Assembly (NCBI RefSeq): GCF_900184265.1
Contig: NZ_FXXA01000002.1
Span: forward strand, 1,758,918 to 1,822,917
DNA length: 64,000 nucleotides
Reading direction: 5' to 3'
DNA from: Eggerthella timonensis
GTDB taxonomy: Bacteria > Actinomycetota > Coriobacteriia > Coriobacteriales > Eggerthellaceae
The stretch's first letter is position 1, and each line of letters opens with the position of its first letter. This document shows, in pieces, positions 1,212 through 28,631 of the stretch. Below the pieces are notes generated by a model. It was not told the origin of the DNA. It saw nothing but the letters and a program-made list of their open reading frames with translations, and searched no databases. The translations under genes and the position numbers were made by a program.

Positions 1212-1291
1212 GCATAGCAGGTTGGTAGGTGCCTAACCGCAATTCCCGGGACAGCCTCATAACTACTCGCGTGCGAAAGAGGAGGCCGTCC

Positions 1292-2287
1292 ATGCTTGCC
1301 AACAGCGATGGATATCTGAACGCCCTGAATCACATCAAAAGAGAAATAGCCGACGCGCAGAACCGTGCGGTACAAAGCGCTAATGCAGAGGTGATCCAGC
1401 TGTATTGGCGCGTCGGCCGCTTGATAGACGAGCGATCCCTATGGGGAAACAAGTACCTCGAAACCCTTTCCCGCGATATACGCCTTGCGTTTCCGGGCAT
1501 TAAAGGCTTTTCCGTGAGAAGCATGAAGTACATGGTCAAATTCGCGCGCGAGGTGGATCGCCAATTGTGCGACAGCTGTTGCACAATTCCATGGGGCCAT
1601 ATCACCCATCTTCTCGATAAGACGGAACCGGGTGCGGAGCGCAAATGGTACGTTCAGGCCACCATAGAGAACGGGTGGAGCCGTGCGGTTCTTTTGCACC
1701 AGATAGAGACCAGACTCTACCAGCGACAAGCGCTCTCCGGTAAAGTGAGCAATTTCGAGCGGACGCTTCCATCGCCCGAAAGCGAGCTGGCGCAGCAGAC
1801 GCTCAAAGATCCGTACATTTTCGATTTCATCACGACGCGCCAAGGTGCAGTCGAACACGAGGTGGAAGATCGCATGATGGAGAACCTCACCAAGCTCTTG
1901 CTCGAGCTTGGCACAGGGTTCGCCTTCGTCGGAAGACAATACCACCTTTCAGTGGGCGAGCAGGATTTCTATATCGACTTGCTTTTTTATAACATTCGGC
2001 TGCGAAGTTACGTGGTCGTAGAGTTGAAGAGTGCCGCATTCAAGCCCGAGTTCGCGGGTAAACTGAACTTCTACCTTTCGGCGGTAGACGACCTGCTGCG
2101 CACCGAACATGACAACCACAGCATCGGGTTGCTTTTGTGCAAGACGAAGGATAACGTGGTAGCCGAATACGCGTTGCGCGACATCGGCAAGCCGATGGGC
2201 GTCAGCGAATACCGGCTCGCCGAAGTGCTGCCGGAGGGCTTCGCCGATCTGCTGCCTTCGCCGGAGGATATCGAGAAACGAATATGA
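1292..2287 (+). CDS. YhcG-like DUF1016 protein with C-terminal PDDEXK nuclease domain
   Basis: A 331-residue protein of the YhcG/DUF1016 family. The N-terminal helical part (about 1-160) has the family signature [11 protein letters not shown] and [11 protein letters not shown]. The C-terminal part (about 180-331) is a PDDEXK-type fold: [18 protein letters not shown], then FYIDLLFYN supplies the Asp and [13 protein letters not shown] the E-x-K. Start ATG 1292 has GAGGAGG 7 bases upstream; the GTG at 1229 lacks such a site. The gene sits between hisF and hisI with its own promoter, as an insertion in the his operon. A near-perfect palindrome lies inside the coding sequence at 1563-1588, and a second copy follows the stop at 2293-2318. 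A second family member is at 27148-28191. The family is annotated as putative nuclease and is often linked to mobile or defence loci. Its actual substrate is unknown. Confidence 0.9.
1563..1588. repeat. 26-base palindrome inside the DUF1016 gene
   Basis: Outer arms AATTGTGC and GCACAATT are perfect, around the core GACAGCTGTT. It encodes the stretch QLCDSCCTI, immediately before the conserved codons PWGH. A 22/26 identical copy lies at 2293-2318, and the other DUF1016 gene has an unrelated palindrome at the equivalent codons (27853-27881). Confidence 0.85.
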
Positions 2288-2292
2288 AATGC

Positions 2293-2318
2293 AATCGTGC
2301 AACAGCTGCTGCACGATT
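2293..2318. repeat. Second copy of the DUF1016-associated palindrome, after the stop codon
   Basis: Arms AATCGTGC and GCACGATT flank AACAGCTGCT, six bases past the nuclease stop and 22 bases before hisI. It could fold as a hairpin, but no T-tract follows, so simple intrinsic termination is unlikely. It matches the intragenic copy at 22 of 26 positions. Confidence 0.85.
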
Positions 2319-26318: not shown

Positions 26319-27191
26319 ATGAGCTTCCGAGACAATCTCCAACATCTGCGCGCAGCGCGCGATTTGAGCCAGGCGCAGCTTGCGACGCTGCTCGGCGTGA
26401 GCCGCCAGTCGGTAGCCAAGTGGGAGGCCGAGAAGAGCTACCCCGAGATGGACAAGCTCATCAAGCTGTGCGACCTGTTCGAATGCTCGCTCGACGACCT
26501 CGTGCGCGGCGACTTAACCGGCTGCGCGACGGCTGCCGAGGAGCCGACGGTCGCGCTGAAGGCGTCGACATCCGTGGGTGGCGCGCTCATTATGCCGGGG
26601 ACCGCCGAAGGGGAGTCCGTGCTCGAAGCGGTGGGCGTCGAGGGCGAGGCACCCGAGGGCGAAGTCGCTGATGCATGCGGCTACGACGAGCACATGCGCC
26701 GCCGCGCATGGGACGTCGCCGCCGGTGTGGCGGTGATCGTCATGAGCTTCGGGGTGGCGATGTTCGTGACGGGCGGCGGTTACAACAGCACGACGGTTTT
26801 GGCGAACATCGTCGTCCACCTCGTAGGGATCGCGCTCGGCCTGTGCCTTTTCGTTCCGGCGTATCGCAGCCATGCGGCATTTCGCAAAGAGCACCCGGTG
26901 GTCGAGGACTGCTACACGCCGGAGGAGAAGGCGGAAGCGCGCCGTCGGAAGCTGTTCGGTGTCGGCGGCGGTGTCGCGCTGCTCGTCTTGGGCATGTTCA
27001 TGCCCGGCATGCTCCAATCGATTCAGATGTTCTCGTTCGTGCCGTTGGGGCTGTTCGCCTGCTTCGCCGCCGCCATCGCCCTGCTCGTCCACGCCGTTCT
27101 CATGGATCGCCGCGTCGACGTGTCCTTCTACAACGGCGCTCCCGATCTCACGATCCGATCCCTCCTTCGAGGGCGTCGTACTGACGCCTGA
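26319..27191 (+). CDS. XRE-family HTH regulator with C-terminal membrane domain
   Basis: A 290-residue protein. Residues about 1-65 are an XRE helix-turn-helix (LSQAQLATLLGVSRQSVAKWE) of the kind that starts many Firmicutes/Actinobacteria regulator-membrane hybrids. An acidic linker follows, then about four hydrophobic helices (135-270). It may transmit a membrane signal to DNA. ATG 26319 has GAGAGGAG upstream. Its last 15 codons overlap the end of the opposing DUF1016 gene by 44 bases, and the 21-bp direct repeat begins in its final codons, so its C-terminus may have been altered when that gene arrived. Confidence 0.85.
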   Translation: MSFRDNLQHLRAARDLSQAQLATLLGVSRQSVAKWEAEKSYPEMDKLIKLCDLFECSLDDLVRGDLTGCATAAEEPTVALKASTSVGGALIMPGTAEGESVLEAVGVEGEAPEGEVADACGYDEHMRRRAWDVAAGVAVIVMSFGVAMFVTGGGYNSTTVLANIVVHLVGIALGLCLFVPAYRSHAAFRKEHPVVEDCYTPEEKAEARRRKLFGVGGGVALLVLGMFMPGMLQSIQMFSFVPLGLFACFAAAIALLVHAVLMDRRVDVSFYNGAPDLTIRSLLRGRRTDA

Positions 27192-28191
27192 TCTCGTCGC
27201 GCAGCTCGTCTTCGGATGGCAAGCAGGGCAGGCATTCCGGCACGAAGATCTGCCGCTCGCCTTCCGGGAGGGTGTACTTTACCACGGCGTCTTTCTTGTT
27301 CGCGCACATCACGAGCCCCACGGGCGGGTTGTCGCCCTCGTTCATGAGCTCGCGCGTGTAATAATGGACGTACATCTGCATCTGTCCGAGATCCTGATGC
27401 GTGAGCGTGCCGGTTTTGAGGTCGATAAGCACGAAGCATCGCGTAACGTAGTTGTAGAACACGAGGTCGATGTAGAAGTGGTCGCCGTCGATCGTGATGC
27501 GCTTCTGCCGACCGACAAAGGCGAAGCCGCGACCGAGTTCCAGCATGAAGTCCTGCAGATGGTCGATAAGCGCTTGCTCAAGGTCGCTCTCGAGCCATGT
27601 TTCATCCTGCCTGAGGCCGAGGAATTCCAGCACGTACGGGTCGCGGATGAGGTCTTCGGGGCGCGTGGGGGCGATTTCGCCTTCTGGCTGGGCGGCGAGC
27701 GTGGGCTTGCCGAGAAGGCGCTCGTAGTGAAAGCTTCCGATCTGTCGCTTGAGTTGTCGTACGCTCCAGCCCTCTTTGATGCATTCTTCCAGATAGAAAG
27801 CACGAGCGTCCTTTTGGGTGACGCGCATGAGTTCGCAATAGTGGCTCCAGCTCAATTGGCTAGACAGTGTCTGGCCAATTGGAAACGTCAGGTAGAACTG
27901 CCGCATGTTCTTGAGGTTTGCAACGGTGAACCCCTTTCCGAAATCGGCGGTCATGCGTTTCGACAGCTGCTGGATGAGCTTCGTGCCGTACTCTGCGCGT
28001 TCCATGCCTTTCTGCTTAGCGACGATGCTCTCGCCGATACGCCAGTACGCCTGCACCATGGCGAAGTTTGCTGCGGAGTACGCGCGCTTCCGGGCGCTTT
28101 CCATGATCTCGTGGATGTGCGTGTAGAACGCGGCGTCGACGAGCGTGCTTGAGCCATCGGACGTTGCGTTTCGTGAATCGTGCATGTCCAT
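27148..28191 (-). CDS. Second YhcG-like DUF1016 PDDEXK nuclease-domain protein
   Basis: A 347-residue protein. The N-terminal DUF1016 part has YWRIGESIV, GKGFTVANLKNMRQFYL, TLSSQLSWSHYCELM and VRQLKRQI. The PDDEXK part has [21 protein letters not shown] (Asp) and FVLIDLKTG, where Asp replaces the Glu of the usual E-x-K. ATG 28191 has GAAAGGA upstream; the open frame to 28362 is untranslated leader. It is only moderately similar to the 1292-2287 protein, so the two are not a recent duplication. A 29-base palindrome lies in its coding sequence (27853-27881), and exact 21-bp direct repeats lie at both ends (27184-27204, 28376-28396). Confidence 0.9.
   Translation of the reverse strand: MDMHDSRNATSDGSSTLVDAAFYTHIHEIMESARKRAYSAANFAMVQAYWRIGESIVAKQKGMERAEYGTKLIQQLSKRMTADFGKGFTVANLKNMRQFYLTFPIGQTLSSQLSWSHYCELMRVTQKDARAFYLEECIKEGWSVRQLKRQIGSFHYERLLGKPTLAAQPEGEIAPTRPEDLIRDPYVLEFLGLRQDETWLESDLEQALIDHLQDFMLELGRGFAFVGRQKRITIDGDHFYIDLVFYNYVTRCFVLIDLKTGTLTHQDLGQMQMYVHYYTRELMNEGDNPPVGLVMCANKKDAVVKYTLPEGERQIFVPECLPCLPSEDELRDEIRRQYDALEGGIGS
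27184..27204. repeat. 21-bp direct repeat, copy 1
   Basis: An exact copy of 28376-28396 (begins ACGCCTGATCTCGTC). It covers the last codons and stop of the HTH-membrane gene and lies inside the 3' end of the DUF1016 gene. Confidence 0.9.
27853..27881. repeat. 29-base palindrome inside the second DUF1016 gene
   Basis: CAATTGGC and GCCAATTG enclose a near-palindromic centre (TAGACAGTGTCTG). On the coding strand it encodes PIGQTLSSQL, immediately before the conserved SWSH, the same place as the 1563-1588 palindrome in the first gene. Confidence 0.85.
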
Positions 28192-28631
28192 GATCGTCCT
28201 TTCGTTCGGTGTCGGTAACGTAAGCCGGGGCGACGAACGAGAGGAGCCGTCCGGAGCGCCGCCTTCCCATGCAAGCCTGCGGCATCTCCGATACGCTGGG
28301 TAGAGTGTACCGCGATTCGGCGAGAGCGAATCTGTTACATGCATAGTGCATGCAACAAACATGCTTTGTTCTAAAACGCCTGATCTCGTCGCGCAGCCGA
28401 ATGTGGGCGCGAATCGGCAGCTGTGACAATGTGGACGGTGTTTGCGGACGGCGACAGACGAAAGTGATTCGTCCCACCTGGGGTTTCTCGTTCTTCAGAG
28501 GCAGTGTTGCCCGCTCAAAGGGTCGCCGGATTGTCATGGGTACCGATTCGCGCCCATATTCGGGCGCACTCGCGCGTCGTCGTCGGCAAATTCGCCGCAA
28601 CCGCGCGCGAACGGCCTTTTGCGCTTTTCGC
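28192..28631. other. Intergenic region upstream of DUF1016 gene 2 and rpsB
   Basis: No gene is supported in this stretch. It contains a near-perfect palindrome at 28334-28356 (GTT-CATGCA / TGCATG-AAC), the second direct-repeat copy, and a locally lower GC content around 28340-28375. Small ORFs here have no ribosome sites or family similarity. Confidence 0.6.
28376..28396. repeat. 21-bp direct repeat, copy 2
   Basis: Identical to 27184-27204. The two copies bracket about 1.2 kb containing the DUF1016 gene, like attachment sites or a recombination scar. Confidence 0.9.

Follow-up and report, generated by a model that had tools for sequence, protein, structure and literature searches.

A palindrome inside DUF1016/YhcG nuclease genes that covaries with putative DNA-reading residues of the encoded protein

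Two DUF1016/YhcG genes and their palindromes

The window, a 64,000-nucleotide stretch of DNA from Eggerthella timonensis, contains two genes of the DUF1016/YhcG family (PF17761 and PF06250; PADLOC PDC-S02). Both window proteins, and likewise E. coli YhcG, carry the DUF1016_N and YhcG_C domains over the Pfam cut-offs, and both genes match the PDC-S02 profile, a candidate phage defence family, with E-values of 6e-132 and 4e-139. Gene 1 (open frame 1229–2287, plus strand, likely start ATG at 1292) is flanked by hisF (PF00977) upstream and hisI (PF01502) downstream. Its PD-(D/E)XK nuclease domain, YhcG_C (1793–2254, plus strand), is assigned by profile match, and the conserved D and LK motif residues are present in the alignment. 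Ahead of gene 1, at about 1170–1215, a promoter-like TTGACT-N17-TATACT overlaps the inverted repeat GTTCTTGACTAGAGAAC, which may be the operator of a different regulator.

Gene 1 contains a palindrome, AATTGTGCGACAGCTGTTGCACAATT (1563–1588), composed of 13-bp arms with a single G.T mismatch pair, which is the predicted recognition site of the protein that the gene encodes. A second copy, AATCGTGCAACAGCTGCTGCACGATT (2293–2318), identical at 22 of 26 positions, lies 5 nt past the stop and ahead of the hisI ribosome-binding site. Gene 2 (27148–28362, minus strand, likely start 28191; DUF1016_N and YhcG_C) carries a palindrome of different sequence at the same codon place, directly ahead of its SWSH codons (27853–27881; CAATTGGCTAGACAGTGTCTGGCCAATTG as read in the window, CAATTGGCCAGACACTGTCTAGCCAATTG on the coding strand). 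These features, described in an earlier sequence-only reading of the window, are all present. The genome has a third DUF1016 gene beyond the window, with a 29-nt palindrome, CAATTCGGAACACACTGTGTTCCGAATTG, that is perfect and lies in the same place.

Two repeats are observed around gene 2. An exact 22-nt direct repeat, ACGCCTGATCTCGTCGCGCAGC, is found in the 3′ coding end of the gene (27184–27205) and just 5′ of its frame (28376–28397), and looks like an insertion scar or the remnant of an earlier gene end. Directly upstream of the gene is a 34-nt inverted repeat (28397–28430 and 28530–28563), the halves of which are 85% complementary and 99 nt apart.

The palindrome across the family

DUF1016 genes were gathered from Actinomycetota, Gammaproteobacteria, Bacteroidota, Clostridia, Cyanobacteria, and other groups, and the encoded proteins were aligned. 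Such genes are present in 109 of 296 sampled genomes of one phylum, and yhcG is present in most E. coli. Palindromes were sought in the linker that joins the ‘RNLKYM..F’ helix to the (P/S)W(G/S)H motif and were scored as matches minus twice the mismatches, with a threshold of at least 10. This threshold is reached in 61% of 223 non-redundant DUF1016/YhcG genes, compared with 0.36% of 13,380 synonymous-codon shuffles of these linkers and 0.52% of the 1,924 windows taken from other parts of the genes. In 173 of the 223 genes, the palindrome exceeds all 60 of the gene's own shuffles; an earlier version of this test comprised 112 genes. The in-gene palindrome is weak or absent in about 15–30% of genes. 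A cause in the protein sequence, considered as a source of the palindrome, is ruled out by the synonymous shuffles. The sequence-only reading had proposed a selected DNA-level site instead of a protein requirement, together with a codon-shuffle comparison, and its proposal is borne out both by the large excess of palindromes over the shuffles and by the occurrence of the motif in noncoding flanks.

The palindromes follow the pattern AATT-N4-(M)MCA around the dyad: each half-site consists of a conserved outer AATT, four variable bases, and an (A/C)(A/C/G)CA-like stretch leading up to the dyad. The innermost pair is purine-pyrimidine and complementarity is not required there, as expected if the palindrome comprises two independent half-sites. 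The dyad centre falls on codon position 1 in 146 of 158 cases, indicating that coding context or common descent constrains the frame. An apparent variation in reading frame does not hold up in this larger set and is no argument.

Additional copies are observed close to some of the genes. In a count that takes in redundant E. coli alleles, motif-type palindromes occur at 3.75 per 10 kb in the 300 nt 3′ of the genes and 1.85 per 10 kb in the 300 nt 5′, and at 0.00–0.16 farther out. The copy past the stop that the sequence-only reading had described at gene 1 is real, but such copies are not general: a minority of about 8% of genes have a motif palindrome no more than 300 nt from the open frame. 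Where flank copies occur, their match to the residue-base code of their own gene (see below) is 64%, compared with 45% for random genes, and lies above all 500 permutations. At gene 1, the in-gene palindrome agrees with the code of its own protein and the copy at 2293–2318 matches at nine of 10 positions. Five genes (L208, L213, L196, L171, and L219) lack a strong in-gene palindrome and have a motif palindrome in the flank instead, which suggests, from small numbers, that the site can sit beside the gene instead of inside it. A gammaproteobacterial DUF1016 gene (L149) is preceded by several tandem motif palindromes of differing specificity, at about -145 and -209 from the open frame.

Elsewhere in genomes the site is nearly absent. 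In the 3.9-Mb genome, the motif with at most one mismatch is confined to two of the three DUF1016 genes and one weak match, which does not fit the REP-like repeat suggested in the sequence-only reading, and close matches to the gene 1 site are restricted to its two known copies. Neither of two exact palindromes was found in a search of viral contigs. Orthogonality of paralogue sites within a genome was also considered and is not significant: paralogues of the same genome nearly always differ in their sites, with one of 61 such pairs sharing a site, but this equals the between-genome background rate.

Covariation of palindrome bases with protein residues

Mutual information was computed between the bases of the palindrome and those protein columns that lie outside the linker. 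It picked out a few residues, which are given here in the numbering of the gene 1 protein, P0001 (window numbering). By this covariation, residue 97 pairs with position -7 of the palindrome, residue 100 with -8/-9, and residue 101 with -5. In gene 1, residues 97–103 (codons 1517–1537, plus strand) constitute the start of a putative recognition helix, as judged from covariation and from their location in the first turns of model helix 75–87. Residues 123–126 (codons 1595–1606, plus strand), which lie immediately 3′ of the palindrome, map to the start of model helix 101–110, with residue 123 tracking -3 and residue 126 tracking -4. Residue 152 (codon 1682–1684, plus strand), at the start of model helix 131–139, also tracks -3.

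Of the 74 genes with R97, 72 have G at -7; where residue 97 is not Arg, the base there is mostly C or T. At residue 100, Arg is found with G at -8, Trp, Tyr, or Gly with T (W100-T, 15/15), and Glu with C (E100-C, 10/12). At residue 101, Tyr, Asn, and Gln are found with A at -5 (43/44, 18/20, and 9/9, respectively) and Arg with C (28/32). Residue 126 is Arg or Lys with C at -4 (R126-C, 27/31) and Ile or Leu with A, residue 123 is Gly with C at -3 (44/44) and Ser with A, and residue 152 is Arg or Lys with C at -3 and Val with A. Arg-Gua, Asn/Gln-Ade, and Glu-Cyt are textbook amino acid-base partners, and several pairs of the code agree with them.

The covariation persists when relatedness is taken into account. 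When sites are permuted only among proteins of the same nuclease-domain cluster, the z-values of the coupled residues are 12–16. In held-out predictions, for which training was limited to proteins less than 40% identical, the base is predicted correctly at -7 from residue 97 in 74% of cases (baseline 30%), at -4 from residue 126 in 72% (baseline 20%), at -3 from residue 123 in 76% (baseline 10%), and at -5 in 88% (baseline 67%); residue 100 is a moderate predictor of -8, and the predictions for window gene 2 and the third gene of the genome are incomplete and in part wrong. Among disjoint nearest pairs with different bases at the position, concordant changes outnumber discordant ones by 56 to 1 for -7/R97, 25 to 0 for -5/R101, 28 to 0 for -4/RK126, 44 to 0 for -3/S123, and 9 to 0 for -8 C/E100, and control pairs with unrelated columns are much weaker and mostly ties. 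Residues 97, 100, 101, and 126 provide the cleaner evidence because residues 123 and 152 follow large clades, such that their link to -3 is partly clade-wide.

The N-terminal domain (151 residues) is modelled with high confidence (pLDDT 93, pTM 0.81); in the full-length model, the nuclease part is poor and the fold search with it is weak. VIA structural neighbours of the N-terminal domain comprise 12 entries of ParB/Noc/Spo0J DNA-binding domains with Z-scores of 8.2–10.0, followed by an unrelated entry at 6.8. Foldseek likewise ranks the ParB/Noc family first, with weak E-values of about 0.5, and a sequence profile search of solved structures with this domain did not find ParB. Given the weak Foldseek E-values and the lack of a match by sequence profile, homology to ParB is a possibility, and the confidently modelled domain can be described as resembling the ParB/Noc DNA-binding domain. 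The coupled residues sit at the starts of model helices 75–87, 101–110, and 131–139, with the half-site read from outer to inner. In the ParB-parS crystal structure, parS is contacted from α4, α6, and α8 (PMC7383237), the same alternation of helices as that of the coupled residues in the DUF1016 domain.

When the nuclease domain of YhcG was predicted in 2005, its N-terminal domain gave no match to known structures (PMC1189080). Among open-licence papers, the family has been without a reported substrate since that prediction (PMC1189080), and the literature on DUF1016/YhcG under such licences does not mention the in-gene palindrome or a substrate.

Allelic exchange, recognition of the own gene, and possible roles

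At the gltD-yhcG-nanQ locus of E. coli, alleles differ by ~1% across most of yhcG and by 30–40% over ~180 bp that contain the recognition helix and the palindromes. The K-12/O157 type (K97, R100) reads AATTCGCC... and has a CGCC-type site, predicted in K-12 to be AATTCGCCAGACAGTGTCTGGCGAATT, and the other type (R97, W100) reads AATTGTGC... and has a GTGC-type site. The code trained at less than 40% identity gives the four testable bases correctly for each allele, including both switching bases. Between alleles, compensatory double changes are observed and no intermediates. The K-12 gene has three linker palindromes and one that lies 15 nt past the stop, of which P2–P4 mismatch the gene's own code at -7/-8; O157 lacks P2 and P3. 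Of 5,426 E. coli genomes, about 3,000 contain the 32-mers of P1 and P4, at one place per genome; the only exception in each search is one genome in which there are two places. As a further observation, the extra palindromes of E. coli yhcG (L159:5828–6955, L160–L166) are nearly perfect and fit the specificity of other alleles, not their own; in allele L165, P2 is a CGCC site, the type that K-12 has as its own. A Gordonibacter gene in the same hisF-hisI place (L016/L056) differs in its in-gene palindrome and in its SWSH type, while the copy after its stop retains the ancestral type, a local replacement of the module.

The sequence of the palindrome tracks the DNA-reading residues of the protein, which makes recognition of the own-gene site the most likely explanation: each DUF1016/YhcG nuclease very probably recognises the palindrome inside its own gene, in line with the sequence-only reading, which had given the target of the encoded nuclease as one example of what the site might be. 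The site, its DNA-level selection, the residue-base link, the module swap, and the near-absence of other genomic sites are established at the level of sequence, and we infer that the protein binds the palindrome in vivo. DUF1016/YhcG proteins would then be sequence-specific DNA-binding nucleases in which the N-terminal domain, with its ParB/Noc-like fold, reads a palindrome of ~26–29 bp, presumably as a symmetric dimer. The cognate palindrome would be written into a linker that tolerates change and whose codons are flanked by those of two DNA-contacting helices; in some genes a further copy lies within 300 nt. The recognition residues and the site lie within ~150–200 bp, so a single recombination tract can exchange both specificity and site, as observed between the E. 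coli alleles. Each family member thereby gains a predicted binding site that is readable from its own gene, and the family gains a residue-to-base specificity code, a ParB/Noc-like fold for a previously unmatched domain, and a test case in E. coli K-12. Specialists in DNA recognition and in bacterial defence would hardly expect a coding sequence that also serves as the cognate site of its own product, is conserved across phyla, and is exchanged together with the recognition helix.

The proposed system shares features with several known ones. The modelled fold of the N-domain resembles that of ParB-parS and Noc-NBS, and as in those systems there is a palindromic site, here judged from covariation. 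ParB contacts its site from three helices and a few residues switch specificity (PMC7383237), and the covariation points to the same in DUF1016. ParB and Noc differ in having a CTPase domain, whereas DUF1016 proteins have a nuclease domain and no CTPase domain was found, and ParB/Noc sites cluster at the origin, whereas the DUF1016 sites of 26–29 bp are private to each gene and, unlike those of ParB/Noc, diversify together with the recognition residues. One parS of B. subtilis lies within spo0J itself. In phage repressor-operator immunity pairs, protein specificity also adjoins a DNA site and the two are swapped as a module, but in DUF1016 the site lies inside the coding sequence, and a nuclease domain is part of the protein. 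Palindromes in or near coding sequence are likewise a feature of Rickettsia palindromic elements and REP/RAYT, RAYT genes having palindromes next to them, but the DUF1016 palindromes are not dispersed and are associated with no transposase; the Rickettsia elements are insertions of ~100–150 nt (PMC4316617).

Recognition of the own gene could serve different roles. Autoregulation, the favoured one, is a tentative proposal made by analogy and close to evenly balanced; it holds that the protein acts on its own gene to limit expression and that alleles diversify such that resident and incoming copies avoid mutual repression. Own-gene repression would keep the nuclease scarce, and diversification would act as it does in phage repressor-operator pairs; most sites, however, are ~300 nt inside the gene, away from the promoter. 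A speculative possibility, which leans toward the doubtful, is that these phylum-spanning nucleases recognise, and possibly cut, an in-frame site that forms part of an exchangeable, self-referential cassette. Diversifying selection would act on this cassette, which would mark mobile or defence genes as self or non-self.

The main rival to autoregulation is a self-targeting nuclease, one that cuts or nicks the palindrome of its own gene and thereby drives gene conversion, module exchange, or exclusion of elements with the same allele; it is rather unlikely. The intact PD-(D/E)XK domain, the long sites that are near-unique per genome, the centring of the ~180-bp E. coli swaps on the site, the K-12-type CGCC site held as P2 by L165, and the many copies per genome in some phyla are all consistent with it. 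Self-targeted cleavage is nevertheless awkward because every expressing cell carries the site in the gene itself and would be cut there. In addition, the filled allele retains the site intact, in contrast to homing endonucleases, for which the site is disrupted or absent in the gene-bearing allele. No cognate methyltransferase, as in restriction-modification, is adjacent to gene 1, the immediate neighbours being hisF and hisI.

A partition-like or nucleoid role, with ParB-like loading on the site of the own element and the nuclease domain acting elsewhere, would suit the ParB/Noc-like fold and the frequent location of these genes on plasmids, but it is improbable given that DUF1016_N and YhcG_C are the only domains found, with no ParB CTPase domain, and that the sites are mostly single. 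It is highly improbable that the palindrome acts as a stem-loop of the transcript for translation control or RNase action, as its long, perfect arms within a transcribed gene might suggest: A.C/C.A mismatches in the arms number 27 and G.T/T.G mismatches 17, and this lack of an excess of G.U argues that the palindrome acts as DNA, as do the fixed outer AATT, the residue-base code, and the copies in noncoding flanks on both sides. Least probable is a functionless by-product of mutation, in which template switching at quasi-palindromes turns chance palindromes within a tolerant linker into perfect ones; it would account for the compensatory double changes without intermediates in E. coli, but it leaves unexplained the same place across phyla and the conserved AATT, and its pure form is refuted by the code at residues 97, 100, 101, 123, 126, and 152, although template switching may help to perfect the palindrome arms.
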